Assembly (NCBI RefSeq): GCF_001540865.1
Contig: NC_033637.1
Coordinates: forward strand, 6,047,676 to 6,111,675
Length of the DNA stretch: 64,000 nt
Direction: 5' to 3'
DNA from: Ananas comosus
Taxonomy: Eukaryota > Streptophyta > Magnoliopsida > Poales > Bromeliaceae
Below, piece by piece: positions 17,676 through 53,108 of this stretch. Every line of letters starts with the position of its first letter. The first letter of the stretch is position 1. The translations under genes were made by a program, and so were the position numbers. The notes under the pieces were generated by a model that was not told the DNA's origin, did not search any database, and saw only the letters and a list, made by a program, of their open reading frames with translations.

Positions 17676-18979
17676 ATGGCCCCAAACCCTACAGAAACAG
17701 AGCTCCCAAATCAAAGCTTTGAGCAACATGTTGAAGCCCTAGACCTCACCCTGGGCCTCTCTCTCCCCCAAAGACCACCCACTTATGATAATGTTCTTGG
17801 CATGCACTGTTCCAACCCTAACCCTAACCCTAACCCTGACCCTAACCCTAACTTGACGTCGTCTGATCCGCTAGTCGCGCCATGGCCATTGCTTGTTCCG
17901 AATAACGATCCCTACAGCACTACCCGATGCTTGCGAAATCCAAACGCTTACGTGATGATGCCTTGCTGGGTTGCACCGGATCGCGGTGCAATGTTCGCAG
18001 CACAGATGCAGCATGTCAATGGTAATGAGAATGCAGGAACTGGTGACTTAGCTCGAGCTCCTACAGCAGTGGGTCCATTTCATGGGGGCAGTAGCAGTAG
18101 AGGATCCTCGTGCGTTCGCGAGGAAAGAAAACGTTGTGAGATTCCAGGTACGTCGTTGTACGTACATGGCAAAATAACATAGAGCCTGTTTGGTTCTGCT
18201 GTAGGATATAGTATTGTTATTTGATTACGTACTATTTTTTGTTTATTAATTAAGTATAATCTTACTATCTAAAAATACCTCCAAATAACTTCCTCCTGCA
18301 GCAGAATTGGATCAAATTAATTTAAGTTTAATTTCTGGCGCTACAACTACATATATTGTGATATGGAAACAAAAATTTTTAGCGATATATGAAGCATATA
18401 TAATTTCGTCGTTAAAACAAATAATGAGCCACTGATTTTAGTGTCTTTGTACAATGTCATTAGCGACGGAGTAACTTTGTTGCTAAAATGTGGTCACTAT
18501 TAGTTTTGTACGAGGGGATTTTTTTTAAAAAAATTTACTTCTCATTAATGAAACCCGATCTTCTGGAATTTCTGAAAGCAGGGGCCTTTTCGGGCGATAC
18601 CGTCGAGCACACACTGAGCAACATTCCTTCTAGCTCTGCGCTTCGTCCCCGCAGAATTGCTGAGCCGGTTCCGAGCATAACCAATGGATCGGTCTCAGGA
18701 GTAGAGCTCACTAATGGCGCTACAATGAGGAGGCTTGTGGACTTATCAAGAACACAGCAGATTCTGCTTGTGACATGCTCAAGTAATAGTGAACGTCCCT
18801 TCAATGGAGAGGCTATGATCACAGTTGGTTTACTCTACAAATACACCAGCAGAGACGAAGTTAGAATTTCATGTGCGTGCCATGGGAGCTCCTTCTCACC
18901 AGAGGAGTTTGCGAGGCATGCTGGGTGCACTGATACTTCGCAAGCATTAAGAGAGATTGTAGTTCATGTCCCTTTGTAG
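17676..18979 (+). CDS. NINJA/AFP-family transcriptional repressor adaptor (copy A)
   Basis: Two exons, 17676-18147 and 18582-18979 (GT-AG, phase 1), encode 289 aa. The start is the Met that aligns with the starts of copies B and D; an in-frame ATG at 17649 would add 9 residues. Residues 22-30 are LDLTLGLSL, a textbook EAR motif that in this family recruits TOPLESS co-repressors. Residues 47-59 are an Asn-Pro run encoded by telomere-like CCCTAA repeats. Residues about 217-289 form the conserved C-terminal domain (GLLYKYTSRDEVRISCACHG, then SFSPEEF and HAG) that binds JAZ or ABI5-type partners. Known members act in the nucleus in jasmonate or ABA signalling; which one this resembles cannot be decided here. 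The protein is shorter than typical members, with a weakly conserved middle. Confidence 0.82.
17816..17855 (+). repeat. Telomere-like CCCTAA repeat inside coding sequence
   Basis: About six CCCTAA/CCCTGA units encode the Asn-Pro stretch of NINJA gene A. Shorter versions persist at 36895-36930 (intron of copy B) and 38702-38725 (pseudogene C), so the tract predates the duplications. Confidence 0.8.
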
Positions 18980-19149
18980 AAGATTAACTTAATAACATGT
19001 ACTTCGATCTTTTCATGTTGCATGTAATAATATCGTGGGGATTCGAACTTAGGATATTTCCCTCTTGATATGATGTGAAATTAAACCAGTATCAGAAATC
19101 CTAAAAAATTTTATTCTTTGTTTCTTATAGAAGATTAGCTGTACAATAT
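18980..19149. other. 3' flank of NINJA gene A
   Basis: AT-rich; probably contains the 3' UTR. No clear polyadenylation signal was chosen. Confidence 0.35.
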
Positions 19150-19516
19150 TGTTAGACGTGCTTCGAAATTTGGTTATTAATTTTGTTTTTGTGATTGACA
19201 GCTTCGCAGTACGACAAATTTGAAAAATAATTTGTGAAGGAAAAAATGAATAGCTGTGGTGGGTACGTAGCCCAAGCTCGTTTTGGAATTTTCTTTTTCT
19301 TTTACTCTATACGCAATAAAATGAACTGTAATAAAAAGAAATTTTATACTTTCTTTTTTCGTAGTAAAGTTCTCTTCTTCTTTGCATGTTGTTTTGTTCT
19401 GTACAAAAAGTTTTCCACGTAAATCCTTCTATTTCATGTTTTATTTTTTTACTGTTTTTGTGGTTTGTCTACTATGAGATCGGCTTTTGTCGTTTCTATT
19501 TGTGTGCTCGTCGTAA
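19150..19516 (+). mobile_element. Solo LTR, copia-like
   Basis: Starts TGTTAGACGTGCTTCG. It shares GTGAAGGAAAA, AGTAAAGTTCTC and CACGTAAATC in order with the solo LTR at 43240-43645. AATAT at 19145-19149 and 19517-19521 is a candidate 5-bp target duplication, but the 3' CA terminus has decayed. No internal retrotransposon sequence adjoins. Confidence 0.55.
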
Positions 19517-19594
19517 AATATATTGAAGAACAATTTAAACTCTGAAGAGAATATTGCACCGAATTGAATTAGATACAAGATAATTAAACTGAAC

Positions 19595-19992
19595 CTAAGT
19601 GTCACGGATACTGACACGGAACACGAGACACGACACGACTTGGACACCGCGACTTAGCAACTTTCAAAAAATTAGAACACAGACACATCATGAAAATTGC
19701 GAATAAAATATAATATTATTAATATAATAATATATTTTTATTATGTATAAAATATTAATTTTGGTAAAATATTATTATATTTTCCGTACGAATAAAAGTT
19801 AATAAAATTTTCATTGATATTTTATATATTTAAGAAAAAAAATTCTCCTTCATACATAATTTATTTATATTGTCAAAAAAAAATTATATGCATTCATTAA
19901 AAAGCTAAAATATTTATCATCTTACATTATATATGTATAAAAAAGTAAAATATAAATAAATAAATAAATAAATAAATATATATATATATATN

Positions 19993-20090
<98 letters not shown>

Positions 20091-20184
20091 TGTATGCACT
20101 ATGAATCGGCATTAAATGAGCATCCAAGGAGTCTCCACATCGGACACGTCTGACACGGACACACACGCGTCCGACACGGACATG
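19595..20184. mobile_element. Possible DNA transposon with GACACGGACAC-type ends
   Basis: The left part (19600-19655) and right part (20120-20184) carry inverted clusters of GACAC/GTGTC motifs, a style seen at ends of some plant DNA transposons. The interior is AT-rich with a long (TA)n tract. Exact termini were not resolved, and the solo LTR that follows is inserted at the right end. Confidence 0.3.
19973..20086. repeat. Long (TA)n microsatellite with assembly N
   Basis: About 110 bp of TA repeats broken by an N at 19992; the true length is unknown. Confidence 0.9.
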
Positions 20185-20189
20185 TGAGG

Positions 20190-22075
20190 TGTCGCACCTC
20201 GGATTACACGTTTCCCCGGTCACTCCAACAGACCTGCCGTATACATAGAAATTTTTACTGTATACGAAGCGATAGCTGTACCTGTAAATAAATCCAAGTT
20301 ACAATCACAAGGTAAAGAGCTGCTAAATAAAAAAGTAATATATAATCTCGAGTACCCAGACAACAATCATATGTACATAAACCCCAAAATTACATGTGGA
20401 AGGTACTCCTCTAACACTGCAGTAAGACTGGAAGGGATCTAGCACGCAACTCCCTTTCCACGATCTAAGTAGCAACAGCAGCAGCCGCGGACGAAAGCTC
20501 TGGAAAAAGAGGTCAACAACTGGGTGTGAGAACTACTGTAAAAAGAAGTAGTCCTCCGTGGGCACCGCTACCGGCCTTAACGGCTCACCCATTAAGTTTA
20601 TAGAAAGTATGCATAAGGATAGTAAAGGAAACTGGAACAACTCTATAGCTACATGCCACTATACTATCTCTAACCACTACCCTGTAGATAAAGAAATGCA
20701 CTCTCTGACTCAATCTCACTAGGAACTGTGAACGCACCCGTCTTGCCTATCGAAACTACACCAACCACTACCACGCTGGGTTGTTGGTGGAGAGTAAGTC
20801 CAATCCGGACACTACGACATCAACGCGAACGCACAAAGCCCGACTCCGAAGTGGCACTCGTGGGCGCTACCTAACCGAGTATGCAAGCGTATCTCTACCG
20901 AGCTCAATCTGCAGGCTCTCGCAGGCTACAATCAAAGAAAAAGGGTTTATCTAGTCTAACAATCAAAGCTCACGTGCCACCGGCACAATCTGATCCAAAT
21001 ACAAAAATCTCGGTCCACCGTCAACTGCGACAGCAGTACCCGACAATCCGGAACAATCTACACACTACTGTAAAATAAGTTCGGCATTCCAGCATGAGCG
21101 TAAACTCACCTTACAGTAATCTGGGTATCTATCGCATATAAGCAGCGGCGATACAAACGAACTACAGCTCCTAAAGTTAAATCTAGTAATTTTTAGAAAA
21201 TGACAGTGTAGGATCTATAGTTTTCTTCTAAATCAATTCCAGATCCAACATGTATAAACAAAGTGACTAGCTTAACTCCATATTCAGATTCTATAGCATA
21301 ACCTATAATATTCATGAATTCGAGTACTAGCACGATAAACCAAACCAACCATAGCACATGTTGACGTCGATAAAACTTAGAAGGAAATTCGACGATTTCA
21401 GTAAACGTCAACCCACCTCGAAAAGCCCGTCCAACCACGGCAAGAAGTCGACAGAAGGAAAAACCACGCGCTCACCCGGCCTCCCAACGACGTAACCGCG
21501 ACGCATGCACGCTCGAACGGTCGTCCGGATCGATGTCGACAACCTCCTGAGTGCGATCCACGACCTCGACAACGCACGATGTCTCTAACTAGAGAGAGAG
21601 AGGAAGTAGCAACCCAATAGCTCACTCTCTGCCTCTCTACACATATAAAGCAGTGGGGATAAGGTTGGGGTTATCGACAACTCAAATGACCAAAAGGCCC
21701 CTCACTTACTCAAAATCTCAGCTGGAGTACCGGTATCAGATTTCGTTCCCGGTACTCGGCCTCTCAGCCCGCAAGGTCGCACACAGGTACCGGTACCGGC
21801 CCGATGCTATACCGGTACTCAGCATCATTTGGCGCAACCCGAGAGCATATTATCCAGAATTTACACTGGGGTATCAGTACTCTACTGCACGGTACCGGTA
21901 CTCAATACTGAAAATCTGCACTTTGCAGGTTCCAATGTTAAATTCTGCTCTCGCGTCGCACTGAGTCAATTTTGCGTCTATTTCGTGCCAAAACGATTTC
22001 GACTTGTCCCGACACTCTCCAGATGTGTTGATAAGCCTCAAATACTGAAATCTCACGACCAACCAAAACACTACA
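20190..22075 (-). mobile_element. Solo LTR, large LTR family 1, minus orientation
   Basis: On the minus strand the LTR starts TGTAGTGTTTTGG (22075) and ends in GCGACA (20190). A perfect 5-bp duplication TGAGG flanks it (20185-20189 and 22076-22080). Its U5 half matches 29612-32037 over many blocks, e.g. CGCTTCGTATACAG and ACACATCTGGAGAGTGTCG. A distinctive cluster of GGTACCGG-type motifs occupies 21728-21905. No primer-binding site, gag or pol adjoins, so the copy was reduced by LTR-LTR recombination. Confidence 0.85.
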
Positions 22076-22272
22076 TGAGGCTTACAAAAGTGTCTGTGAT
22101 ACATAGACATGAACAAAAGGTATATACTATTGTCATTAAAAGACCGATAAAAAATCAATGCAATACCACTAAATAAATCAATAGTATATACAAATAAACT
22201 ATTTTATTATTGATCTATAACCAGCCTGTGTAAGTCGCCTGCTTGGCATGGCAATGATAAATATAACACTAA

Positions 22273-23239
22273 GGGTGCGTTTGGTTCGAGTTATCCTGGC
22301 AGGATTACAGGTAATTCTGCTAGGATTACTGTGTTTGATTCATTCGCTATATAATTTAGTCGTTAATGTAGCATTACAAATCAAGCAGAATTATATCGAA
22401 AATATTAACGAGGGGGGTGTCGTGTATCTTGTATTACTGAAAACCGGTAATACTATATATTATGTAAAATGACAATTTTACCCTCTAACTCTGGAAACCT
22501 TTTCAATACATTTTTTTTAAAAAAATGTAATTTAAAATTTTGACTTGTCAGCTTTTAATTTTTAATTTTTAATTTTTACATTTAAATTTTTAAATTTAAA
22601 TTTTAAACTTCAAATTTAAATTTTAAATTTTAAATTTTAAAATTTAAAATTTAAATTTAAATTAAAATTTTAGATTTTAAATTATAAGTTTTAAATTTTA
22701 AATTTTAAATTTTAAATTNCTTTTAAATTTGGAATTTTAATTTTCAAAAATTTTCAAATTTTTAAAATTTAAATTTTTAAACATCAAATTTCAAATTTCA
22801 AATTACTTTAAATTTTAATTTTAAATTTTAAATTTTAAAATTCAAATTTTTATTTTAAATTCTAAATTTTAAATTTATATTTTAAATTCTAAATTTTAAA
22901 TTTATATTTTAATTTTTTATTTTATATATATTTATATTTAAATTTTAGATTTTAAATTTAGAAATTTCATATTTTATATTTTAAATTAAAATATTAAATT
23001 TATATTTTTGTTAAAATTTAAAATTTAAAATTTAAAATTCAAAATATTTAAAATAAAATTTGGTAAAAAAATATTATTTGTAAACGATAAAATTTATTTT
23101 ACAAAATATGGTTAAGGGCAATTTTGGAATAGACTATACTTTATTGTCTAGATTATTAAATTTTATTGATAAAATCAAACATTGTAACACTATAAACACT
23201 GCAATACAACATTATATTACTATATTAAATCAAACGCAT
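22273..23239. mobile_element. Tourist-like (PIF/Harbinger) element
   Basis: Left end GGGTGCGTTTGGTTCGAG and right end CAAACGCAT form the typical GTTTGG terminal inverted repeat, flanked by TAA on both sides (22270-22272 and 23240-23242). The interior is almost pure AAATTT-type low-complexity DNA with an N at 22719. No transposase. Confidence 0.7.
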
Positions 23240-23242
23240 TAA

Positions 23243-24384
23243 TGCAGCATCAGTAGTAATCCCATTTAGAAATCCACGATATAAATCTATTTCTTTATAC
23301 AAACAAAAGATCAAATAGTATTAATGAGTAAAGGTTTAAATTGCGGTGGAACTTTAATTCTCTAAAAACTTTGTTAAATATAAAAATATAAAAGCATCGT
23401 TCTCTATCGATCGTTTTATATAATTTAACATGCATCAAAGTAGAAGGTCCTGATCGTACACGAAGTTTCTCGTTGAAGCAATTGAAAGATTAATTGACGG
23501 AAGGTTCCGGTTGGAGCGATGCTATAAATTACCACGAACTTGTTGTTCAAGTAACAAAGTTATTTTTTTTAAAAAAAACTTTAGATGACAAATTACAATC
23601 GATCCAAAGTTCCATCATTCTATTTTTCACTCATTTGGCCCACACTGTTTTTGTTGACCTGGTTGTGTTCTAATGCATCTGGTAAAAATGCATGTATTTA
23701 TGGAGATCGACCATGCACCTCAGTTATAGGCCATTTCGAAAACGAAACAGCCCTTTAACTTTTAATTTTTCAAAATTAAAAAATTTTAGTCAAATAGACT
23801 AATTAAAAATTATAGTTAAATTCATTTATGAATTGCCAAATTTGTTGGTTTTAATAGCAAATAAAGGGAGAATATTAATGGTTTTTATATAACTATAGAG
23901 CAATTAATGTTTTTCAATACCAAAAAATGGAAACGGGCTACTTCGACCGTGACCTTGTTTATAAAATAGTTTGGTTCAATCCTTTGAACTGAATAAGCTA
24001 AAAAATTATTTTGAACCGTACAAACTAAAAGTTCAACCATCGAAATGATGAACCAGTCTAACTGTAATTAATTAAACTGGATGAATTTTTTTGATCAAAT
24101 CATATTAAAATCTAATAAATTAAAATCAACTCAGTTGATTTTATTTTTTATATGTTACCACAAATTAGTCTAACAAAATGAAAAACTTGAAAGCATATCT
24201 ATTAAATTTGTTCTATAAATTATGATTGTTTTATAATTACGTATAATACTGAATAGTAGTATCTATATTTTTTTTATATAATAAATTAAAAATAGTAATT
24301 AAATATATATGATATCATGTTGATGTTATTGATTTTTGATTGAATAATATTTTTAGGTGGATGTTGGACCCAATTTTTAAAATA
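23243..24384. other. Intergenic DNA, no element recognised
   Basis: AT-rich without long ORFs; nothing supportable was seen. Confidence 0.4.
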
Positions 24385-24867: not shown

Positions 24868-24887
24868 TTTAATATATATATATATAA

Positions 24888-25073
24888 TTGAGCTAGAATA
24901 CTCTCAAAAGCACCTTTCTAGCCCTTAGATCTACTACTTGATTACTAATAACTTTTGGATGATCAAACACTATTCCACATACCACCATCATCTCAACCCT
25001 ATATTTCTCCATCCAATAACTAAAAACTCAAAAGTATCAACCCCTTGGTGTTTTTGAGAGTATTCTAGCTCAA
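24888..25073. mobile_element. Small microsatellite-bounded foldback MITE
   Basis: Starts TTGAGCTAGAATACTCTCA after a (TA)n tract and ends with the exact complement before a (CT)n/(TA)n tract. The terminus is shared with the intron-4 element at 7811. Confidence 0.75.
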
Positions 25074-25104
25074 CTCTCTCTCTATATATTATATATATAT
25101 ATAT

Positions 25105-25777
25105 TTTTTGAGAGATAGGTAGCATGCTACCCGCTTCCACTACAACAAAAACGGTCTATAACAACATTTTTAAATGTCGGTACAGGTCAAAAAAAGTGCT
25201 GTTGGCTAAATTACCGACACTTTTAAAAAGTGTTGCTATATGTGGGGTTGCTAGGTATATAGTGGCAGTTAAAGAGTGTCGCTATAACATAAAAAGAGTG
25301 CTGTTAATTTACCAACACTTATTTAAGCATTTAGCAACCGCTGGAACTCTACCTCGTTGGATGCGGTGGCGGAGGAGGACGAGAGGAAGAGGAAGGGATC
25401 TTCTTCTAGGATTTCAGTTGATTGAGTGAGGGGAGACGGGGAAATGGTAATCGATTTTTCTTTTCTTTTTCTTTTCTGTTTGTAATCGGGCCGAATAGGC
25501 TGGGTGGGGTGGGTTGAGTAGAATAACCTTTTATTTTTGGTTGGATTGGACTTTATATTTAGGCATTAGTAGATTTTTTTAAAATTTTGACATAAATGGA
25601 ACACTTGCACAAAAGTGTCCTAAACATGTGTTCCTATAATCTAATTATGTTGTAATGTTCGTTTATTTTATTTAGAAATAAAATTTGCTGGAAATGTAAA
25701 TCAACTAGGATTTGAATTTAAGTATCAGGTACCAACCATCAAGCTCTTTACCAATTGCTCTAGAAACAGCCGGTTAT
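25105..25777 (-). mobile_element. SINE copy 2, split by a CACTA MITE
   Basis: The SINE 3' part (complement) is at 25105-25137 and the remainder at 25658-25777. The interruption is a CACTA MITE with its own 3-bp duplication. Removing the MITE and one TTC restores the family consensus CCCGCTTCGTTTATTTT seen in intact copies. Confidence 0.85.
25138..25657. mobile_element. CACTA-type MITE nested in a SINE, copy 1
   Basis: 520 bp. Left end CACTACAACAAAAACGG and right end TTATGTTGTAATG form the CACTA terminal inverted repeat, flanked by a perfect 3-bp duplication TTC (25135-25137 and 25658-25660). Short inverted AAGTGTTGC-type motifs lie inside. Non-coding; needs an autonomous En/Spm-type partner. 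Confidence 0.9.
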
Positions 25778-25805
25778 ATATTATATATTGTTAAAAAACA
25801 CTACA

Positions 25806-26125: not shown

Positions 26126-26179
26126 TTACATGCACCGATTAGAATATATATTATAATATATAGGAGGAAAAAAAGTCAA

Positions 26180-26607: not shown

Positions 26608-26948
26608 AAAAAAAAGAGTCTGGAATGTGAAAATAACACTACTTTGTTTGTGCTCCTAATCAATCAAATTAATTATGCTCCTATAATTTACGCATTGCAT
26701 TATGATCATTTTTTTAATTTTTTTTTACCTTTCTCTGGAAAGAAAAAAATTTTAATTGGCTCAAGATATGAATTATATGGTGCACGTGCTATATAGAAGA
26801 CCATCTTAAATATTAGAAAAATGTGAAGCCTACAACTAAAAAAATCAAAAAAAGATTGTAGAATTATCCTGGTGTGGAGACTTTCCTTCCTCAACTTTGT
26901 ATAACATTTTTTGAATTTTAGTACTAAAAAAAGAGAATTATATTATTA

Positions 26949-27100
26949 TTATTATTTTGAGAGATAGGTAGCACGCTACCCGTTTCGTTTATTTTATTTA
27001 CAAATAAATTTAGCTGGAAATGTGAATCAACTAGGATTCGAATTTGGGTCTCGGGTACCAACCACCAAACCCTTTGCCACTTGCTGTAGGGACGGTCGGT
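26949..27100 (-). mobile_element. SINE copy 3
   Basis: Full-length, reverse orientation, with the intact tail stem-loop GGTAGCACGCTACC. A perfect 15-bp duplication AGAATTATATTATTA flanks it (26934-26948 and 27101-27115). Confidence 0.9.
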
Positions 27101-29058: not shown

Positions 29059-29214
29059 TTTTTTTTTTTTGAGAGATAGGTAGCACGCTACCTACTTCAT
29101 TTATTTTATTTAGAAATAAACTTAGCTGAAAATGTAAATCAACTAGGATTCAAACTTGGGTCTCGGGTACCAACCATTAAGCCCTTTTGCCACTTGCGTT
29201 AGGACGGTCGGTGT
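29059..29214 (-). mobile_element. SINE copy 4
   Basis: Reverse orientation with stem-loop GTAGCACGCTAC. Flanks AATTGATTCAA (29048-29058) and AACTGATTCAA (29215-29225) agree at 10 of 11 positions. Inserted in the MITE cluster. Confidence 0.85.
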
Positions 29215-36187: not shown

Positions 36188-37543
36188 ATGGCTCGAAATC
36201 CTAGCATTCCAGAGTGTTCCAACCAGGCCCCTGAGATGGAGGAAGGTGTGGATTTTAGACTCACCCTAGTTCTCTTCCTTACTTAATTTGGGCCCGGTTA
36301 CAATGCATGCCCTTATTTAGCTTGTTATATTTATTTCTTCACTTCTAATTTTAATGGTTTGAGAAGAGTGAGGTTTACAACATTGATATTCTTTCTTTCA
36401 TGAGTGATTACCTCAAGAACATGACAAATTACTTCATAAAGGCTCCATGCTAACCATGCATCTCATATATATATTTGTTTATTTCATTACTAACTCTGTA
36501 ATGATCCTACAATCACAATCTAGTACTAAGTTGTATTGTAGTTTTTTTTTTAATTAAAGTTTATGCACACACAATTAGGATGGAGACTTTTCAAAGTAAT
36601 ATGTTAGTGCACCCTTCGCCCAATTTAGTGGGTGAAAATAGCAAGCATGAACCCGGAAATTGGGTACATGCTGCATTTGAACTGATCCTGTTCATCAGTG
36701 AGGTAGTACATATATCCTTGTTCATCATAATCTTTTTTTCGCCACTTTCAACCTAAATTGCACCATTACAGTATATAGCTTCTTCATCCAATGTTGAGTG
36801 TCTCTTCTGAAGTTGCATTAATTCCTTCTTGATCATGATCGATCGATCGTCAACGTAAAGCTAGCTAGCTAGTTGCTGTTCCTAATGGCAAACCCCAACC
36901 CTAATTAACCCAAACCCTAACCCTAACTTCCTTTTTCTTCCAACTTAATTACAAGAAGCATTTAGGAGAATTCACTCAAACTTTTCTTTCCAAGCTCTTC
37001 CCTTTATTGTTCTTTGAATCACATTTACCAATATTGTTTATATATCCTACATATATACAAGTAGCTACTGATTTTGTTCACTACGTAGTGCGATCTCAAT
37101 TTCTTTTCCTTTTGTTCTTCTCACAAAACTTGTGTATGCCTTATCAAAAAGGTCTATTGTTTGGCTATGCAGGAGAAACAAGCAGCAACCGGAACTCAAA
37201 CCGGGCCATGGATACTATTGATGAGCGAATTCCCAGAGAATTATCCCCTACTCCTACTACAGTTTTTCGGCCCAACCCGGTCCGAATTAGAACGCCCTTT
37301 ATCAGAACCCCGATTGGAGTGCAGCCGATTCTGCGTGTTACGGCCCACTGTGAGGGTTCAATCCCTGGATTATCTAGGAATGTAAATGGTTTACTATACA
37401 GGTACAATAATAGAGAGGATGTGACGATCGCATGCCTATGCCATGGCGTGTCCTTCTCGCCCGAGGGGTTTCTACTGCATGCGGGGCGCACTGATACTTC
37501 TAATGCTTTAGGAAAGATCATTGTACACAGCTGTGTCCCTTGA
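36188..37543 (+). CDS. NINJA-family short protein, EAR-less (copy B)
   Basis: Predicted exons 36188-36245 and 37173-37543 (142 aa). Exon 1 encodes MARNPSIPECSNQAPEMEE and ends GAAG|GT; exon 2 starts after CAG in the same phase as copies A and D. The C-terminal 65 or so residues form the NINJA C-terminal domain (GLLYRYNNREDVTIACLCHG, SFSPEGF, HAGRTDTSNALGKI). Reading on past the donor gives VDFRLTLVLFLT and then a stop, a decayed EAR region that looks intronic now. A CCCTAA tract at 36895-36930 in the intron corresponds to the coding Asn-Pro tract of copy A. If expressed, it could bind partners without recruiting TOPLESS, acting as a microprotein-like competitor; that role is inference. Transcript evidence is needed for the exon 1 donor. 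Confidence 0.6.
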
Positions 37544-38299
37544 TGATGTTCTGAGGGGATATGTAATGGCTTGGTTTAGTTTTTCTTTTTAGCCTTAGTT
37601 TATGCTGCATTGGTTGGATGTAATATATACATTAAAATAAAATGAATCTGCACTTGTTCATCTTATGCCCATTTCTTCTTCTTAAATCACATATGCTTTG
37701 AGCTGATAATTCAAATCAGTGAGAAAAAAGGAACACTAATACTAACAGGTTGCAACATGTAAAGGTCATTAGATAGAGGATTTTCAAGAGTATTTAAACC
37801 AAAATTAATACAAGACTTGTTTTCCACATAATTTGAACAGATCTATTGTCAAAGGTTTCTATCGCCCACGAAAAAGGTATTTGACAAAAAAAGTAATTGT
37901 TCGCAAAGAAGCTACTGAGAAAAACTACACGTAAGTTAGAACTCTTTAATTTACTGATCAGTATGATGAATGACAAGTATGCATGCATGTATTGGGAGAG
38001 AGTACTTCATCACCCAAAGATCACAAGATGGTCACATAATTCCTGAAATCTAAACTGAGTTCTCTATCACTTAATCCTTAACAAATCCATCTGGGAGGAA
38101 CAATGTATTAAACTAGACAACCACTTTATATAAACCTTCACATTATATACTCTTAGGATCAACACCGAAAGGTAATTTTCACTTAGTTATCAGGCCGAAG
38201 AGTCGATTGAGCAAACCTTGTGTTAGGTTAGATTTGGATTAGTACGTTGTATCCCATCGGTTGTTGGATTGAGAGTGGATTTTGATCCATTATTATAAC
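37544..38299. other. Intergenic DNA after copy B
   Basis: Probable 3' UTR of copy B, then AT-rich sequence with no recognisable element. Confidence 0.4.
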
Positions 38300-38448
38300 C
38301 GATTGTCCCTAGAGCAAGTGGCAAAGGGCTTGGTGGTTGGTACCCGAGACCCAAGTTCGAATCTTAGTTGATTTACATTTCTAGCTAAGTTTATTTTTAA
38401 ATGAAATAAACGAAACGGGTAGCGTGCTATCTATCTCTCAAAAAAAAA
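38300..38448 (+). mobile_element. SINE copy 5
   Basis: Plus-strand copy: CGATTGTCCCTAGAGCAAGT at the start, B box GTTCGAATC, tail ACGGGTAGCGTGCTATC and poly-A. Target duplications not clear. Confidence 0.8.
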
Positions 38449-38604: not shown

Positions 38605-38937
38605 TTGTCTGTTATAGTTGACAATCAAAGATCAGTACTTCCTGATCATCAACCTAAATTTAGTCTCTACTCCTTACCAAGAGGTGATACCATGAATTCC
38701 CTACCAAACCCTAACCCTAACATAATCACTTTTTTTGTTATCTTCCAACTTATTAGCTGGAAGCCATGGAGCCCTTTGACGGAATTTTTATCAGTTTTTC
38801 GGGGTTACTATGCAAGTACTCGAATAGAGACGAAGTTACAATCGCACGCCTGTGGCGTGTCGTTCTCGCAAATCGGTTTCTGTTGCATACAGTGCGATGA
38901 TAATACTACAAATGCTTCAAATAAGGTTACTTAATTT
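38605..38937 (+). pseudogene. NINJA-family pseudogene (copy C)
   Basis: Contains the CCCTAACCCTAAC tract (38702-38725, still readable as Asn-Pro repeats) and a decayed C-terminal domain from 38811. One frame reads GLLCKYSNRDEVTIARLWR; about 20 codons in, the family sequence continues in another frame as GVSFSQIGF, showing a frameshift. Key Cys and His positions are altered. No intact exon 1 was found upstream. Confidence 0.7.
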
Positions 38938-39589
38938 GCACGTAGATGTTCCCAGATCGATGATAGTTCCTAGAGGAATACATATGTATATATATGTAAT
39001 GTCTTTTACGGTTTAGCTTTAAATTCTTTTTTTCTTTAATTATTTGTGTGCTAAGCTTTCAGTGAATTCGCACAGGTTTTCTTACTCTATATATAGGATG
39101 ACTCAGATCCAAATTAATGAAACCTGAACCCCATGGGTTTTTATTGGATTTAGATCGAGATTATACGTGTATCTTTTTATCTTTTATTGACATGTATATA
39201 TGTATACGGTCTATTTATTTGTTAATTAGATAGGAATCAGACCCAGTAAATACGAAGTGAATATTAAGATGATTCTTCTTACCCATCTGATGAAAGCTAG
39301 CTCGTATTAGGATTGCTAATCTTCATCACTTAATTGCTTTGATCCGATGACAATTGCATGTTTACTATTAATTAACATTAATGTTCCTGATTTCTCCCTC
39401 ATTTGAGTTATTATCTCAAAAAATACATGATTTAAGAAGAGAAAATATGTGCATAACTAGTGCAGATCCATTGAAATCCTTTTAACCAGTTTATAGCATC
39501 CAACAGCACAAGCATAAGAGAAAACAGAACAAAAAAAAAAAAAAAAAACCAACCCTTTACATGTAAATTCCAATGCATGCATATATATA
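38938..39589. other. Intergenic DNA between copies C and E
   Basis: AT-rich; no gene seen. Confidence 0.4.
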
Positions 39590-39770
39590 TATATACATGC
39601 ATAATGATCTTTCTCGAAATATTTTAAGATATTATTGAACCCAGCATGCAATAGAAACCCCTCCAGCAAGGAACGAAACCCCACGGCATAGGCGTGCAAT
39701 TTTAACATCCTCTCCACTAGTGTATCTCTATACTTACGTACTCGACTGATCAGCTAAATTGATAAAATGT
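39590..39770 (-). pseudogene. Inverted NINJA C-terminal-domain fragment (copy E)
   Basis: On the minus strand GTGGAGAGGATGTTAAAATT matches the copy B segment encoding REDVTIA, then reads LHAYAVGFRSLLEGFLLHAG against CLCHGVSFSPEGFLLHAG, and ends near a sequence like GKIIV. The catalytically irrelevant but conserved Cys-His pair is lost. No upstream exon; oriented opposite to A-D. Confidence 0.7.
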
Positions 39771-40296
39771 CATTAAATCAAATCTTCACAGTTTGTTGCA
39801 ACACGTAAAATTAGCTGCACTCCTAAGAGGGCTTCAGTAAACGGCGTTCCATTCGCATGGGCAATGCATTATATGTTATGATCTCCATTATCGCCCAACT
39901 GAACACGATATTCGAATTCATATTCGAACCCTAGCTAAACTCAAATTCAATTGTCACTGGTTTACAATTCAAATCCCTAATTCATATTGGACGTTGAGCT
40001 CTTATGAAATGTTTAAGTTAAATCTTGTCTAGTCATAATCCAGTAGCTAGCTAGTATTCTAAATCAATTCACTGCCACAAACCTATAGTTTCAACCAGTA
40101 CTAACTCTTCAAACCATGCACTTGTCGTCCCCTTCTTGGTGCTCATCAATTCCAAGTTTTTAGGGCATTAGATCATAAGGAAATAGGCGTGGATACAGAG
40201 GGAAAATTAGCAAACATATAGACTAAGAACTTTAGCTTTCTTTGATTCGTAACTACAGTGATTTTGTTATGATAATAAATTGCATGTTAACTATAA
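39771..40296. other. Intergenic DNA
   Basis: No gene or element resolved. Confidence 0.4.
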
Positions 40297-44569: not shown

Positions 44570-44708
44570 CGAATTACAAAGAACTAAAGGCTAACAAAGC
44601 TTCTAAAATTAGTAGCTACTATTAGAAAGCTGTAGATGCTGGTAATGGAAACAAGAAGATTAGAAATAACGGTCTTTGATCTAGGAAGAAGGACCTTTGT
44701 TGTAGGCA

Positions 44709-44724
44709 ACTTTTCACACTATTT
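44709..44724. repeat. Left target-site duplication of the LINE
   Basis: ACTTTTCACACTATTT, identical to 46871-46886. Confidence 0.92.
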
Positions 44725-46870
44725 CTAAGGTCCTCGCCAATCGGCTAGAATTGATCATGAATGATCTAATATCCCCTTCCCAATCTGCTTTCTTGAAGGG
44801 GAGGAACATAACCGACGCATACGCAGCAGCCTCTATACTATTAGGATGGGGTTGCAAAAAAGCTATAGAGGGGGTCGGTGTGAAGGTGGACTTTGAGAAG
44901 GCTTTCGATAGAATCTACTGGCCTTTTTTGTTTAGTATCCTTGATTGGTGGGGATTCGATAAAAAATGGTGTGGATGGATCAACTTATGCGTGTGCCATG
45001 CAAAAGTAGCTGTCTTGGTTAACGGCGAGGCAACCAATTGGATTAAAACGAGGAGAGGCGTGCGACAGGGGGACCCTCTCTCTCCCTTTCTCTTCTTGCT
45101 GGTGGCAGAATGTCTCGCACGGATGACTAACGAGGCAATCGTTAACAACCTTATAAAAGGCCTGGGACCCTCCGACGACAGCAGAATTGCCCTTATTCAA
45201 TTTGCTGACGACACACTTTTCTTCTGCGAGGCCAAGAAACGATGCATGAGAAATCTGAAGTTCATGTGGCACCTCTTTGAATGGGCTTCCGGAATGAAGA
45301 TCAACAGGGAAAAGTCGGAACTCTATTATACGGGGCAGATCGAAGGAAAAGCGACAAGATTAGCTAACCTTCTGGCGTGCAAAGTTGGTAGCCTCCCTAC
45401 CAAGTACCTTGGTCTGCCCCTCTCGCCCAGACCCCCGTCTAAGACGGACTGGACAAGGATTATTCACAAAATTCATTGTAAAATTGACGGTTGGCAAGCC
45501 AAACTCCTATCTAGGGGATGTAGACTTACTTTGGTGAACTCTGTTCTAATCAACCTACCCCTGTACTACCTGTCGGTCTTCAAGGCGCCTAAGTGGGTGA
45601 TCAAGCGCATTAAGTCGCTTCGCAGAGACTTCTTTGGAATGGCAAAAGTAACTTACCAGGTAAGGGATGCCTGATAGCTTGGAGGAGTGTATGTAGGAGT
45701 AAGAAGGAAGGGGGGCTAGGCATCTTGGACCTAGCTATCATGAACCAAGCCCTACTTACCAAGTGGTGGTGGAAGTTCCATACGGCGCCCCAGCTGCAAT
45801 GGAACAAGATCATTCGCGCCCTACACTATCGCAGAAGAATACCCATGAAGGAGGGTAGATCCTTTAGGCCTCTCTCAAACTGGGGGAAGGGAGTCCTCAG
45901 TCTTAACGAAATCTTCAAATGGGGAGTGTACCACGAAGTGGGTAACGGGAGTTCTCTTGAGTTTTGGTCGGATCGATGGTGTGGGGAGACAACGTTAGAT
46001 CTAGCATTCCCTGAAGCCTACACAACGACGGTTCACAAAAATCTCAAAGTCAAAGATTGTTGGGGGAGTGATGGTTGGAACTGGAGCAAAATCCTCGGAG
46101 GCGATTTCGTTAACATGTCTGGACTGGGCCCTCACTTCCCCGCCCTACGGGATAGATTGGCCGGTTTCAAACTTGAGCAGAGACCTGATAAGACCTTTTG
46201 GAGATGGACCCCCGACGGATGTTTTACGATGAAATCGACTTACGCAGCCCTGAGCGACGGGGGTTTAAGGGATATCAGAGTTAGCACGATCTGGTGACTC
46301 CCAATACCACTAAAAGTGAAGGTGTTCTGTTGGCTTGTCCTTAAGAGAAGGATCCCTACATTAGAAAACCTGATAAAGAGCGGATGGACTGGGGATGCAT
46401 ACTGTGTGTTGTGTGGGACCGAAGAGGAAACCGTAGACCACTTGTTCTCACGTTGCGTATTCACGAAATTCCTTATACTGAAGGCCGTAGAGGAAGTCCA
46501 CTCTGTTGATTTTGCCACCGACGTCACCTCGGCCTGGGACAGGTGGTCGAGCAAATTTGGGCACAGCCAACGTGCACCAGGCTACTAGTTCTTGCAGCTT
46601 GCTGGTGGGTCATTTGGGAGTTAAGGAATGGGGTGATCTTTCGAAACGTCACACCGGACCCCCTATTAGCTGTTCAGAAGTTGATTCGTTTAACGAAGCA
46701 CTGGGAATTGCTCCTCCCTGCTAATCGAGCTGCTCGTCCCTGCTATTAGATTTTTTTTTTTCCTCTCTCTCTCTCTCTCGCGGCCTCGGTTGCTTCATCA
46801 CTGTAGCCTAATTCAATTCCTCTATGAATGAAGCGGGTAGCGTGCTACCTTTTTCTCAAAAAAAAAAAAA
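44725..46870 (+). mobile_element. 5'-truncated L1-type LINE with poly-A and 16-bp target duplications
   Basis: The element begins abruptly inside the reverse-transcriptase domain and runs through the RT remainder, a zinc-finger-like C-terminal region, a CT-rich 3' UTR, the tail GCGGGTAGCGTGCTACCT and a poly-A ending about 46870. The exact 16-bp duplication ACTTTTCACACTATTT flanks it. These are the marks of target-primed reverse transcription that stopped early. The last 35 bp before the poly-A match the SINE family tail. Confidence 0.92.
44730..46748 (+). pseudogene. Decayed LINE reverse transcriptase (partial ORF2)
   Basis: Reads KVLANRLE, then SPSQSAFLKGRNI, VDFEKAFDRI, RRGVRQGDPLSPFLF and FADDTLFF (the catalytic YADD-type box as FADD, normal for plant L1), then the connection region up to about 45660. 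There a frameshift breaks the reading before GCLIAWRSVCRSKKEGGLGI. A TGA at 46294-46296 interrupts the next part, which contains FCWLVLKRRIPT and a CxxC...H...C zinc-knuckle-like CVLCGTEEETVDHLFSRC. A second frameshift lies near 46545, before WVIWELRNGVIF. With no 5' end and three lesions it cannot encode a working enzyme. Confidence 0.9.
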
Positions 46871-46886
46871 ACTTTTCACACTATTT
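46871..46886. repeat. Right target-site duplication of the LINE
   Basis: ACTTTTCACACTATTT, identical to 44709-44724. Confidence 0.92.
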
Positions 46887-48958
46887 ATAGAAGTTTAGCC
46901 AATCTTTACTTAACCTGTGGTTTTTGGACGGTTCACTTCGTGGGGAGAGCTTTGTCCACATCTTTTTCAACTACGAAATCACTCCTTGTCTCCTAATTAA
47001 CCGTTGCTGCCCAAAATCCGTTTGTCTTTGGGCTGTATTTCCTACGTGTTATTTTTCTATTTGACCACGTGGGCCGAGCCGACATGCCAGTTGGCATCAT
47101 ACTTTCTTGTGCCAACACCTTGTAGACTCATTTTGATGACACAACCTCTATATATAATAACAATATGCACCCATTTTTATTAGTTTATTTAGGGTATCTG
47201 AAGTCTTTAGAAACTGGTTTTTCTTGCTTTTGGAAATTATTTTTGCTACGTACATCAGAAATCCACAAATGAACAATTTAAATCTAACAGCTTGCTAAAA
47301 GTGAAAAATACAGCTATAAAATTTTGAGATCAAGGATATTAATTGATCTTGATCTAGATAGTTAAAATAACTTTTGCACCTTTAAAATTAACAACACATG
47401 CCTAATGCTAGCTCTTGAAATTATCAATTTTGAGATGCATCGTTACTGGTAAGTACTATTGAAAAACAACAAAATAGAATGCTTAAAAACTTCAAAATAA
47501 CTTATATTAAATTTATGTCAATCATTAAATTAGCTAGATATCCAGTAATCAAAAATAAATCTATAGTTAAAAGCTTTCCTATCATAGAAATTAACTGAAT
47601 TCACATGCTTGTACTAATTTCCGCTATGTAGCCATGAACCATTGCTCAAACTTCAAGCATAAAAATATATAGAATTTATCTGGACTATGAAATATTTCGT
47701 AACGACTACCTAACACTAAAAACTTTGATAATTTAACATGATATTTCATCTTGTTTGATTTGAGTTTTTTACTCTCTTCTCTTATTAAAGAATGTAGTTA
47801 TATGTTGTTTACTTTAACGGACTTGATTACGATATCTCGCATTACTAGAGTTCATGCTGGTGTGTTGATTGTCATAAATTAATTGTTTAGTTGATATATT
47901 TAGACCTTTAAGCTTTGGGTTCTAGATTGGATTCTGGTGAAACTTTATATAGAAAATAGTTAAAAAAAAAATATTTTGCTCATATAAAAAATTGTTCAGC
48001 AATTTACTTAAGCCAATATAGTAAAGTTTTATTGATTTTCTTTGGTTGCCATATATAATTAATGCTCGTTAATTATACTAATTATATTATCTTTATCGTG
48101 AATTACATCGATCATCAATTTATTGAAAATGTTTCATTTCAGTAAATACAATGTCTAAATTACTTTTCTCAAAAAAACAATGTCTAAATTACACTTCAAA
48201 TATGAGAGTATATATAATAGCTTGGTCCTCAAACTTTTATAATAATTGCCGGGCCAAACTTTCTAAATTATTGCTATCAAATCACAAACTTGAATTCCCA
48301 TATGTCATTGATGTGGCAATGATGTGGAATTTTTGGCATTCCCATGTCATCAACAACATGCAGCACTGCCATATCATTTCCCTATCAGCGAAATATCATA
48401 TTTAGCTAACTAACTTATACAGCAAAATTTGATTGCAACAATAAAAATGTTCAATCCATAATTTATAACAAATTAAATGAAAAAAAAATGTACAAAGACC
48501 TCCTGAGCTTTAGCACATTTGTAAACTTGTGCTTTAACTTTTAGTTTCGATAGTTAATCTGATTAAATTTTATCAAATAATTCAATGGATCCTCTTCTTG
48601 ATCGAAGTTACTAATTACGCAGCTAATTTCATCACTTGTACTGCATATATATAATCTCGTAAAGCTTTAAAACACACACATTAAAAAGAACTAGATAGAA
48701 AAACACAAAAAAAACATATTTATTTTGTTCTAATATGTACACAAAAAATTAATAAAATTATAATAGATTCACTCAATTTTTCAATCATAATTCATAATTA
48801 TCACAATCAGAAGAATTTTTTTTTTTTTTTTAATATATGAAGTTATTTAAAAGTACGTGCAAGGCATGTGATTAAACAACTATTCAATTAGCAAAAACAA
48901 TTGAGAAGGAGAGCATATTAACCATTTAATAAAGTTTACAAAATGTAATTTATTAAAA
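46887..48958. other. Intergenic DNA with one MITE scrap
   Basis: A GC-richer patch at 46900-47120 contains CCACGTGGG (near 47064) but no ORF. 47640-47790 resembles one arm of the 40297 MITE family. The rest is AT-rich with nothing supportable. Confidence 0.4.
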
Positions 48959-49450
48959 GGGGCAATTACTTATATACTCTGAAAAAATTTCTGACTTTCT
49001 GATTTACTCTTCTTAAAAGGTTAATATTGAAAATACCTTTTTTACGTTCCAACCTATTTTAAATATATCTCTAGAGTTAAAATCTGTTAATGAATTCTGT
49101 TATCTCTTTAAAATTACTATTTTGCCCTTTCAAAATATACCCTTCTACCATTATTGACTTTTTTTATTTGTCCTTAAGTTAGGAGCATAAAAAATATTTT
49201 ACTTTTTGATTATTTCAAATATACCCTTTTACTATCAACAATATTTCTTATTTGCCCTTAAGATAAGGACAAAAGTGACATTTTAATTTTTTAATTATGA
49301 TAGATATTTAACTTACGTTTAATCCAAATTAACTTAACGGGTAGAAACTATAGAGATATTTTAGAATAACGGAGTAATATATAAAGAGTATATTAAAAAA
49401 AAAAATAGAGATAAATAAGATATTTTTGACCGGTGTATAGGCAATTATCT
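48959..49450. mobile_element. MULE-type MITE, family GGGGCAATT, copy 1
   Basis: 492 bp. Left end GGGGCAATTACTTATATACTC, right end the complement of AGATAATTGCCTATACACC. A perfect 9-bp duplication TTATTAAAA flanks it (48950-48958 and 49451-49459). It supplies the empty site for the nested element at 53719. Confidence 0.88.
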
Positions 49451-49534
49451 TTATTAAAATTAAAAATTTGGACATCTTTTTACAGTGAAAAGCTAAAGTT
49501 ACAAGAAGAAAAAAAATTCAACAGTGAGGAGCAA

Positions 49535-49880
49535 ATTTGAGAGGTCCCACGTCATCGTCAACTACCAACCATATCCCGACACGCGTCAGTTGGTGGCGAT
49601 GTCGTAACGCTTTTCGAGGACACATGCCCTGCCGCGGCGGCAAACGTGGCTCGACCCGACCGCATGCAGAAGCTCGAGTCTCGAGAAAATCGTGAACGCC
49701 CGAGCCCGCGTGACACGTGTCTGTTTTCTACTGGCGGACGGAGATGAATTGCTGTGTCATCCACAAACAGCAGATCCCGGCGGTTTCAGAAGCTCGGACG
49801 AGCAACGTCACATGCATGCTACTGCTTTTCTGATAGTAAGTGGGCCCGGTACGGCAACGGACGGATTCCGTGTAGATTTT
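49535..49880 (+). promoter_or_regulatory. ABRE-rich GC island upstream of NINJA copy D
   Basis: GC-rich island with CCACGTCA, GACACGCGTC (49578-49587), AACGTGG and GACACGTGTC (49712-49721). It combines in one block the motifs found separately at 25806-26125 and 33145-33275. It lies 1.9 kb upstream of copy D, with SINE and Tourist-like insertions between. ABA responsiveness is inferred from ABRE cores only. Confidence 0.5.
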
Positions 49881-49889
49881 CAAAATTTC

Positions 49890-50495
49890 TGAAATAGTGA
49901 AATCCAATCCGACGCTAAACTCAAAATCTGTGGATTTTAAAAATTTATATTCAAATCTGAATCAGATCAAAAATTTGAAGTCTGAACCCGGATCCGAATC
50001 CGAAAATCCGAACCGAAATACTTTTTTCTTTTTTCAGTATTTTAAAATATATTATATTAAATTTAAATTTCTAAAATACAAATTCAAATATAATATCAAA
50101 TTTTAATATATCGACCGTCCCTAGAGCAAGTGGCAAAGGACTTGGTGGTTGGTACCCAAGACTTAAGTTCGAATCCTAGTTGATTCACATTTTCAGTTAA
50201 GTTTATTTCTAAATGAAATAAACGAAGCGGGTAGCGTGCTACCTATCTCTCAAAAAAAAAAAAATCAAATTTTAATATATATATATAAAATGTAACATAA
50301 ATTCGGATTCGTATCGAGTTCGGATTCGGATCGGGTACAGTCAAAATCCATATCCGAATTCATATCTATCGGATTTTTGTTTTTGATATTCATATCCGAA
50401 ATCATATTCGTTTAGTATCGAATAAATCCGTTTTGTTTGGATTCGGGTTCAAATAAAATTTCAGGTATATGTATCCATTGAGACATCCCTAAACT
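49890..50495. mobile_element. Probable hAT-derived element hosting a SINE
   Basis: Inverted runs of ATCCGAATCCG / CGGATTCGGAT at 49960-50020 and 50295-50450, with a right end resembling TAGGGATGTCTCAATGG read on the minus strand, a common hAT terminus style. The left end was not resolved. Confidence 0.4.
50112..50264 (+). mobile_element. SINE copy 6, intact with perfect target duplication
   Basis: 153 bp: CGACCGTCCCTAGAGCAAG start, B box GTTCGAATCC, tail GAAGCGGGTAGCGTGCTACC then ATCTCTC and poly-A. The perfect 16-bp duplication TCAAATTTTAATATAT (50096-50111 and 50265-50280) suggests a young insertion. Best reference copy of the family. Confidence 0.93.
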
Positions 50496-50504
50496 GGACC
50501 TCTA

Positions 50505-51320
50505 GCCGTGTTTGGTTTGCCTATTTTTCACTCTGGAATCGGAATCGAAATGGATGAATCCATTTTTTGTGTTTGGTATACGGAATTTCCATTCCGATTC
50601 CAATTTTCGGTGAATGGGAATTCACGCGATTACCCCTTTTCCCAATCCGGCCTAGGAGCCTAGGCTAGATTGGAAATTAAATCCGAATGGAATGGATTTG
50701 TTCGGATTAAATTTAACTTTTTTAAGCTTTTTTTTAATTTTAAAAAAAGTTTAAGTTTGAAAATTATATTTATAAATATAAATTTAATTTGAACTTAAAT
50801 TAAGAATTAAAATTTAATCAAGCATTTCGAATCAAATTTATAAATTTGAATTTAAAATTAAATTTAATTTAAAATCTAAAGTTTTATTCAAATTTTATTT
50901 AAAATTTAAATTAAATTTATAGATTCAAATTGAAATTTAAATTATAATTTTAAATTTGAATTTATACAAATCAAAATTTAATTTTATATTTTAAATTATC
51001 CATTCAATTTCAAAATTTATTTTTTATAAAAAAATATTCAAAATTTTGACATCATTTTAAAATTTTGAACTATATTTTTAATATTTAATTTTCAGTTTGA
51101 ATTTAAACTAATATATTATAAAAATTAAATTGATATATTAATTTGATTACGTTTCTAATATTTATCTGAATCAAACACCGACAATTGAAATAATCCATTC
51201 CAATTCTGATTTAGATTGCGAATCAAACAAAATAATGTAATGAATCATTTAGATTCTGTTTAAAACTTATTGTCATTTCGATTCTGATACCGATTCCGAC
51301 TTCAAACTAAATACACCCAG
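50505..51320. mobile_element. Tourist-like element
   Basis: GCCGTGTTTGGTTTGCC at the left and the complement of GGGTGTATTTAGTTTGAAG at the right, with internal mirrored GGAATCGGAATCG / CGATTCTGATACCGATTCC blocks. Non-coding AT-rich core. Confidence 0.55.
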
Positions 51321-51370
51321 GTGTTGTGGTGTTTGTGGCTTTTTTTGAGCAAATAGTAGCATTAATTTAA

Positions 51371-51565
51371 CTGATCGTTGCTAGTGCAAGTGGCAAAAGA
51401 TTTAGTGGTTGGTACCCGAGGTATTGCAAAGGACTTGGTGGTTGGTACCCGAGGTCTTAAGTTCAAATCCTAGTTGATTCACATTTCTAGCTAAGTTTAT
51501 GTTTAAATAAAATAAACAAAACGGTTAGCATACTACCTATCTATCTCAAAAAAAAAAAAAAAAAA
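51371..51565 (+). mobile_element. SINE copy 7 with internal duplication
   Basis: The segment GGTGGTTGGTACCCGAGGT is present twice (near 51405 and 51437), giving an extra ~32 bp around the A-box region. Poly-A tail of about 18 A. Confidence 0.8.
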
Positions 51566-51756
51566 CATTAGTCACTATTTTGGGCCTCGAGCCATACTAT
51601 AAAGGGGCCAACGTTTTCTTCCCCCTGTTGTGTTACAAATTAAACGTACCATTAATTTTTCTCTTCTCCTTCTCTATGTATCTTCTTTAATTAAGAGCAT
51701 TATATATATATACATCTATATATTAAACTCTTTTGTTAATTTTCTCCATATTGTTC

Positions 51757-51824
51757 ATGGAGCCAAGCGACAATGTTTCAGAGTTATCCAAAGAGACCTC
51801 TGAGAATGAGGAAGGTTTAGAGCT

Positions 51825-51874
<50 letters not shown>

Positions 51875-53108
51875 GATCTAAGCTAGGGTTCAATAACAAG
51901 CATCTATACATTTTGTGCACTGCCTCCACTTCTTTATTAAAGAGTTAGGCTGTTTAGATTGAAATGTGTGATGAGATGCAGAAAAGATGATCAGATGACG
52001 TGTACATGTACGTGCAAGAATATATATATGTTCAGATATACGTACGTACCGGGTGCAGACAAATAATTTTTTCATCAATGCAATAATTTTTTCATCAATA
52101 TTGAAATATGTGATGAGATGCGGAAAAGATGAGGTGATCGTGTACGTGTACGTGCAAGAATATATATATGTTCAGATATACGTACGTTCCGGGTGCATGC
52201 AGGCAATAATTTTTTTATCAATGCTAGCTTCGCTTTTTATTTCTATGAATTTGTGTTTTGTAGGTGGGGTACTTAGTTGCACCATTGTGTGTATCTTAAT
52301 TTCGTAACAAATTAGTGCGCGCTTTAACCATGTGTAGTGGATTATTTTTGTTGGTGAAAAATATCATTAGTATAGAAATCCAAAAATCCCTTAGGTTGTT
52401 GCAATTTATTAATTAATTATAAGACCAATTTTGAATCGTTAATTTTCCCAATCTGACACTCATCATGCACGTAAGTAACCAATCTGAGAGTAATTCTGAT
52501 ATGTTTTCTACTAAATTGATCTTTCGGATAACGCATTTTATCAGTGACGTGATAGAGATCTCTAGTCATGCATAATGAATATGCATTATATATATCTTCA
52601 ATTTTGCATACATCCCTAATTAACCCTCACCTTAATTACTTTTCATTTTCCTATTTCTATCCAATCTATTACTGTTCAAATATTTTTAGTTCAGAAGATG
52701 TATTACATTCTCTCATCTTTTCTGCTGTTACTAGCATCTTAGAAGCTCATTATATATCAAAACTACTCATGTTCTTCTCATGAAAATGAAGAATAACTCA
52801 TGCATGGTCTTAATATGTATCTTTTTCTTGTCGAAACCGCAGAAGAAACTAGCGAAAGCTCCAACGAAAGAACTACACTGCCGAAACCGCGTGCAATGCC
52901 GGTTTTTCGCGTGACAACAAGCTGTGAAACAGCAAGAGGAAGGGTCACAAAAGCTGGGTTGCTCTACAAGTACACTAGCATACATGAAGTTAGAATAGCA
53001 TGTCTTTGCCATGGAGCATCCTTCTCACCAGAGGGTTTTATTGCGCATGCTGGCTGGAGAGACACCTCAAATGTATTGAGAAAGATTATTGTTAATCATG
53101 CCCCATAA
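51757..53108 (+). CDS. NINJA-family short protein, EAR-less (copy D)
   Basis: Predicted exons 51757-51814 and 52843-53108 (107 aa). Exon 1 is 58 nt, the same length and phase as in copy B, ending GAAG|GT. Exon 2 follows a CAG acceptor and encodes a full NINJA C-terminal domain: GLLYKYTSIHEVRIACLCHG, ASFSPEGF, HAGWRDTSNVLRKII. Both Cys and the His of the CxCHG box are present. Reading past the donor gives GLELLSLSFSLSLSLSL..., where a CT microsatellite has taken over the EAR position; that frame stops at 51946-51948 without an obvious in-phase donor. Predicted role: partner-binding protein lacking the usual co-repressor motif, or, if exon 1 is retained differently, one with an LxLxL-rich tail. 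Only transcripts can decide. Confidence 0.6.
51829..51871 (+). repeat. (CT)n microsatellite at the former EAR motif
   Basis: CT repeats with one interruption; in the frame of exon 1 it reads Leu-Ser repeats. Confidence 0.85.
51957..52222. repeat. ~140-bp tandem duplication in the intron of copy D
   Basis: GAAATGTGTGATGAGATGC (near 51961) recurs as GAAATATGTGATGAGATGC (near 52103). Both are followed by GTACGTGCAAGAATATATAT, TTCAGATATACGTACG, CCGGGTGCA and AATAATTTTTTCATCAATG. Confidence 0.8.

Follow-up and report, generated by a model that had tools for sequence, protein, structure and literature searches.

The NINJA-family cluster

The 64,000-nucleotide (nt) stretch of Ananas comosus DNA considered here (contig NC_033637.1, positions 6,047,676 to 6,111,675; hereafter, the window) contains five loci, A to E, related to the TDBD, that is, the C-terminal "domain C" of NINJA/AFP proteins, and we are mainly concerned with what two short copies, B and E, may encode. 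A first-pass annotation had reported five such domains, and when the domain cores of A, B and E were used as tblastn queries against the whole window, all five were returned as the top matches at the annotated places. The segments of A, B and E are the cores listed in Table 1, with E-values of 2e-18 for B and 4e-19 for E with the A query, while D (39727-39640, minus strand; 1.4e-4) and C (38799-38897; 3.7e-4) were found with the B query. Outside these places, the next rows from the three core queries had E-values of 0.42 or more.

The assignment to the NINJA family, which had also been proposed in the first-pass annotation, is supported by further comparisons. In the domain search suggested for the five segments, A exon 2 and E score above the curated cut-off (23.6 bits) of the Pfam TDBD model, PF16135, and B lies 0.6 bits below it, while the four pieces of C and D that were tested have no Pfam match. 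Additionally, the PDB chain 8t2i_N ("AFP homolog 2", which we take to be Arabidopsis NINJA) is matched by A, B (1.2e-05) and E (1.9e-05), and the residues of the CxCHG...HAG signature are invariant in A, B, E and P0001, a pineapple protein described below. Another proposed signature, SFSPEGF, is exact in B and E, reads SFSPEEF in A and is broken in C and D. Taken together, the tblastn, Pfam and 8t2i_N matches rule out that the domains of B and E are chance similarities. A further PDB match of B, to 5yzv, contains no stretch that passes by itself. No NCBIfam family was matched by P0001, P0003 or P0004, Rfam gave no match at gathering scores and, as expected, B had no match in a plasmid collection.

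As judged by its open frames and its closest protein match, A is a two-exon NINJA-family gene. When its exons are joined across a phase-1 intron of 434 nt, they encode 289 residues (aa) with no internal stop, and this product is 96% identical over its full length to P0001, annotated as "Ninja-family protein" in Ananas comosus var. bracteatus. A full-length search (E ≤ 0.01) returned two matches from 1335 candidates, P0001 and P0002, the latter covering 55%. The EAR consensus pattern is LxLxL, and the motif LDLTLGLSL is present in the sequence of A; Pfam found no family in exon 1, the EAR model included. Likewise, the NINJA/AFP NLS model PF16136 has no match in the exons of A or in P0001, nor in the related protein P0005, while P0006 does match it. 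At 17814-17854, an in-frame telomere-like hexamer (AACCCT) encodes the NPNPNPNPDPNPN tract of gene A, the length of which differs in P0001.

By their alignments and disrupted frames, C and D are dead exon-2 fragments, and B, C and D constitute one sub-cluster. Both fragments have a broken frame; the Cys and His of the CxCHG motif have been lost in C, and CLCHG has become RLCRG in D. Thus, the tblastn, Pfam and blastn results agree with the earlier proposal of local duplication, accompanied by inversion (D) and decay (C and D).

Table 1. Coordinates of the exons, motifs and decayed copies in the cluster (numbered from the first letter of the window)
Feature	Positions	Strand	Observations
Gene A exon 1	17676..18147	+	472 nt, phase-1 end, donor CAG/GTACGT at 18148; open frame; matches P0001
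Gene A EAR-type motif, LDLTLGLSL	17739..17765	+	from translation
Gene A exon 2 with TDBD (core 18827-18967)	18582..18979	+	PF16135, 30.1 bits; 8t2i_N, 2.3e-06
Gene B predicted exon 1 (MARNPSIPECSNQAPEMEE)	36188..36245	+	58 nt, donor AAG/GTGTGG at 36246, phase 1
Gene B EAR-like remnant (VDFRLTLVLFLT)	36246..36286	+	3′ of donor, in frame with the B ATG, stop at 36284
Gene B exon 2, intact TDBD (core 37388-37528)	37173..37543	+	phase-1 acceptor TATGCAG/GA; PF16135, 23.0 bits; codon-position constraint
Copy C, decayed	38644..39084	+	blastn: 38644-38764 matches the predicted intron of B; 38781-39084 matches B exon 2 and 3′ region
Copy D, inverted, decayed exon 2 and 3′ region	39286..39861	-	blastn: B 37277-37830 against 39861-39286, 65% identity
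Gene E predicted exon 1 (MEPSDNVSELSKETSENEE)	51757..51814	+	58 nt, donor AAG/GTTTAG at 51815, phase 1
Gene E EAR-like stretch (GLELLSLSFSLSL..)	51815..51943	+	expanded into a (TC)n microsatellite, 51825-51871
Gene E exon 2, intact TDBD (core 52956-53096)	52843..53108	+	phase-1 acceptor ACCGCAG/AA; PF16135, 26.5 bits

Candidate first exons and splice sites

Although the earlier count of one full, two short and two dead loci was right, B and E probably extend further than had been supposed, as each has a first-exon candidate upstream. These candidates, which replaced a view of both loci as mere copies of exon 2 lacking a start, were obtained by comparing the first 30 aa of A with the translation from each of the 2086 ATGs of the two strands. 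Apart from the start of A itself, the top ATGs were 36188 (score 40) and 51757 (37), located about 1 kb 5′ of exon 2 in B and E, respectively, and the next best scored 18. Of 500 shuffled versions of the A query, only two scored 37 or more at an ATG elsewhere, and a score of 40 was never attained. Similarly, when the 58-nt exons were slid along the plus strand, the best non-self position of each was the start of the other (38/58 identical positions), followed by the start of A (31/58 for the B exon and 32/58 for the E exon), with 30 as the next value in both cases. The first 35 residues of A, compared with the translated flanks, also beat 200 of 200 shuffles 5′ of B and 5′ of E, while the score obtained 5′ of C and D was reached by 142 and 193 of 200 shuffles, respectively. 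Consequently, B and E likely each have an upstream first exon. An alternative start of B at 36886 (MANPNPN and a stop) was also considered; its likeness to A consists of a CCCTAA-like tract.

The predicted splice sites of the two genes share a common layout. In both, 19 codons and one base precede AAG/GT, giving a phase-1 donor (36246 in B, 51815 in E), and the acceptors (37172/37173 in B, 52842/52843 in E) have the same phase, which is also that of the intron of A. Directly past the donor, the frame reads EAR-like, as LELLSLSFSLSL in E and as VDFRLTLVLFLT in B, where a stop follows. Every GT between the ATG and the acceptor was tested as a donor that would leave the frame open as far as the stop of exon 2: in B, this was found for only one of 50, 36246, which is also the top-scoring of the 50 (donors were scored with plant donor-site frequencies), and in E for two of 64, 51815 and 51944. 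With donors 36246 and 51815, the spliced models encode 142 aa in B and 107 aa in E, with the TDBD kept and the EAR absent.

The lengths of the predicted introns point in the same direction. In A, 414 nt of exon 1 lie past nt 58 and, together with the intron, make 848 nt, compared with introns of 927 nt in B and 1028 nt in E, as expected if the rest of exon 1 turned into intron. This remainder is not detectable in the introns of B and E, with the exception of the CCCTAA-like tract in B. Within the window, an 11-mer of this tract, AACCCTAACCC, is confined to A exon 1 and the regions upstream of B and C; the tract upstream of B may be a relic of A exon 1 or a promoter telobox.

Age and constraint

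The high synonymous change between the copies rules out a recent expansion. Synonymous divergence (Ks) is 0.90 between A and E and 1.44 between A and B, and it could not be computed between B and E (proportion of synonymous differences, pS, 0.79). By these distances, the duplications are old and A, B and E are old paralogues. In a protein tree of seven sequences that included three outside family members (200 bootstraps), A, P0001, B and E split from the latter with 75% bootstrap. Nevertheless, A is as near to an outside protein, P0005 (33/48 identical residues), as it is to E (33/49), and the clustering is thus moderate. The first-pass annotation had expected all five segments to cluster within the family; this holds, at that strength, for A, B and E, the three copies covered by the tree.

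The differences accumulated in the TDBD carry the mark of coding constraint. In a core of 47 codons, the differences at codon positions 1, 2 and 3 are 10, 9 and 24 between A and B; 10, 8 and 20 between A and E; and 6, 9 and 29 between B and E, with pN/pS values (nonsynonymous over synonymous proportions) of 0.32, 0.38 and 0.21, respectively (bootstrap range for B-E, 0.12-0.35). At sites where A and E agree, first and second positions have changed in six of 76 cases in B, compared with 15 of 72 in D and 18 of 70 in C (Fisher tests against B, p 0.033 and 0.006; six gap sites were dropped in D and seven in C), and a test on the ratio of positions gave p values of 0.076 (D) and 0.035 (C). For the other two genes, the changes by codon position are 2, 3 and 9 for E at sites where A and B agree, and 6, 3 and 4 for A where B and E agree. 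Constraint has thus been weaker on C and D than on B, which was held to code while these sister copies decayed.

Interpretation

We propose that the cluster is an old one in which B and E became dedicated two-exon genes for TDBD-only proteins that lack the EAR motif and resemble LITTLE NINJA, a reading to which we assign a probability of roughly 0.47. In this model, the product of A would act as a full-length adaptor, with its N-terminal EAR-type motif recruiting TOPLESS and its C-terminal TDBD contacting JAZ/TIFY proteins or NINJA partners. In B and E, the 58-nt first exon would be spliced onto the TDBD exon from a donor located just before the old EAR motif, so that the remainder of the ancestral first exon would have become intron and subsequently decayed. 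The resulting short proteins would enter NINJA-type complexes without TOPLESS, leading to a looser repression of jasmonate responses. Homology, reading frames, splice-compatible phases and the past constraint on the TDBDs of B and E are demonstrated here; that both genes would be transcribed and spliced at these sites, and that their products would bind and act as described, is inferred.

Several observations weigh against this proposal. Some of them concern the first exons: in one of the 12 flank tests, no shuffle out of 200 scored as high as a stretch of P0005 aligned 5′ of D and, as this result is apparently meaningless, a single win in such tests is weak evidence. Moreover, local alignment of the first 60 nt of A with the DNA of B and E gave scores that are not significant, being reached by six of 150 shuffles for B and 35 of 150 for E. 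The two EAR remnants have no significant similarity to each other either, as 122 of 150 shuffles score as high. Others concern relationships and timing, as B and E are grouped with only 64% bootstrap and the constraint on their TDBD could date from before the loss of the EAR, although the 58-nt layout common to both genes argues that this loss preceded the B-E split.

Further difficulties arise from the donors of E. Donor 51815 (score 1.06) is weak, at the 91.5th percentile of plus-strand GTs and fourth-best in its own region, and splicing from 51944 (AGA/GTTAGG) gives an open, in-frame junction and a product of 150 aa that reads GLELLSLSFSLSLSL and keeps an EAR-like LSLSL stretch together with the TDBD. 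The region 51815-51943 is thus intron with one donor and exon with the other, with a read-through stop at 51946. The absence of the EAR and the N-terminal region is true of the gene models for B and E and of the only open-frame splice in B, and E has an alternative that would keep the motif. On this reading, B might hold an unrecognised middle exon; the introns of 927 and 1028 nt have room for additional exons. We consider the retention of the EAR improbable, as donor 51944 scores -1.97 (66th percentile), 36246 is the sole donor of B with an open frame and, apart from the CCCTAA-like tract of B, no additional part of A exon 1 can be detected in the introns.

The protein searches are not favourable either. 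The spliced E query (four candidates) matched only an unspliced frame, P0003, and an alignment search with exon-2 pieces (7994 candidates) had only the unspliced P0004 and P0003 among the matches listed, although the spliced B was never a query itself. P0003 (102 aa) and P0004 (135 aa) are present in the protein database and have upstream ATGs, and it could be argued that B and E make their EAR-less TDBD proteins from internal starts, with no need of the 58-nt exon. There is a precedent for this in Arabidopsis AFP1, for which excerpts from PMC9252474 describe a short mRNA, encoding the C-domain only, produced from an internal transcription start in the full-length gene. However, such starts leave unexplained the matching ATG, the 58-nt length and the phases of donor and acceptor, and P0003 and P0004 may be mere translations of genomic contigs, so we give this explanation only a small chance.

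Finally, the differences between B and E in exon 1 are 6, 7 and 7 by codon position, that is, with no bias. This observation, the absence of a spliced product among the protein matches and an EAR region of B that still reads DFRLTLVL, well preserved for a supposed intron, would fit B and E being unexpressed relics of full-length NINJA genes: exon 1 would have ceased to function only recently, and the TDBD frames would have remained open for lack of time. We regard this as doubtful, but it deserves serious attention. It would take a coincidence for B and E to have an identical donor at exactly 58 nt, recent loss does not agree with the near disappearance of the rest of A exon 1 from both introns, and B kept its coding pattern while C and D decayed. 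Additionally, when the 141-nt core was simulated under generic neutral evolution with 17% change per branch, a single copy stayed open in 38-53% of runs with no indels, but only in 11-16% with 0.05 indels per substitution, 3-5% with 0.1 and 1-2% with 0.15.

Relation to known short NINJA-family proteins

NINJA links JAZ repressors to TOPLESS. LITTLE NINJA (LNJ), which has no domain other than C, interacts in yeast with NINJA and not with JAZ and weakens NINJA dimers, and its overexpression alters jasmonate signalling, according to excerpts from PMC7584889. The predicted products of B and E resemble the LNJ of Brachypodium and maize in that they are short, keep the TDBD/domain C, lack the EAR and have a full-length NINJA relative. 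By contrast, B and E are predicted to be separate genes beside that relative, with a traceable first exon and EAR remnant. By analogy with LNJ, their products may bind NINJA and perturb jasmonate signalling. They also share with the short AFP1 form the family and the C-domain-only product, but the latter derives from an internal start in a full-length gene, while B and E would be dedicated genes. For its part, A resembles NINJA/AFP proteins such as P0001 in its TDBD, combined with a putative EAR-type motif read from the sequence, and differs in the lack of Pfam matches to the EAR and NLS models. Two pineapple NINJA genes are described in part of PMC10644199 as changing their expression during forced flowering.

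In the same excerpts from PMC7584889, LNJ is treated as an isoform that splicing of a larger gene might produce, its formation in Brachypodium is left open, the short isoform could not be targeted separately, and single-copy LNJ-like genes are reported in some dicots, with an origin not easily traced. The paper that gave LNJ-type microProteins their name thus does not settle whether they are natural products or mere possible isoforms. If our proposal is true, two short genes located beside their full-length relative would make it possible to knock out the microProtein cleanly by itself; as the change before the EAR is still readable, they would also illustrate one route by which such genes arise.

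A bolder version can also be considered, although we find it very unlikely. With the intron retained, the frame from the same ATG would encode 32 aa in B and 63 aa in E and include an LxLxL stretch ahead of its stop in either gene, so that both genes might be split switches in which the spliced RNA encodes a TDBD-only poison of NINJA complexes and the intron-retained RNA an EAR-only peptide that could titrate TOPLESS. If so, splicing at a donor located exactly in front of the EAR would decide which of two opposite microProteins is made, a layout kept for a very long time in two genes.

Other observations

The TDBD cores of E (52956-53096) and B (37388-37528) may have a SAND-type fold, as SAND and Ski chains top both VIA-align lists, and SAND_ULT1 and c-SKI appear as weak Pfam matches for the domain. 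Foldseek with the E model returned nothing at E ≤ 0.001, and a literature search found no paper combining ninja, SAND domain and tify.

The window also contains several features unrelated to the cluster. A sequence of about 150 nt at 50112-50264, probably a short interspersed element, has an A-rich end and a tRNA-like GTTCGAA box and is dispersed over the window, with 12 blast rows when the query itself is counted. Further copies are found at 38305-38448, 26946-27098, 29059-29210, 53390-53545, 51426-51560, 495-645 and 25658-25763, together with shorter pieces. A reverse transcriptase (PF00078, 101.8 bits over the frame 44706-45674) suggests that 44706-46297 belongs to a LINE-like element. Exons with an NTF2 domain (PF02136, 74.5 bits) and an RRM-like stretch (PF00076, 17.6 bits, under the cut-off), at 6622-6972 and 11970-12290, are probably part of one G3BP-like gene. 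Finally, self-blast revealed that 719-5573 is densely covered by long self-matches, direct as well as inverted, with 65-91% identity.

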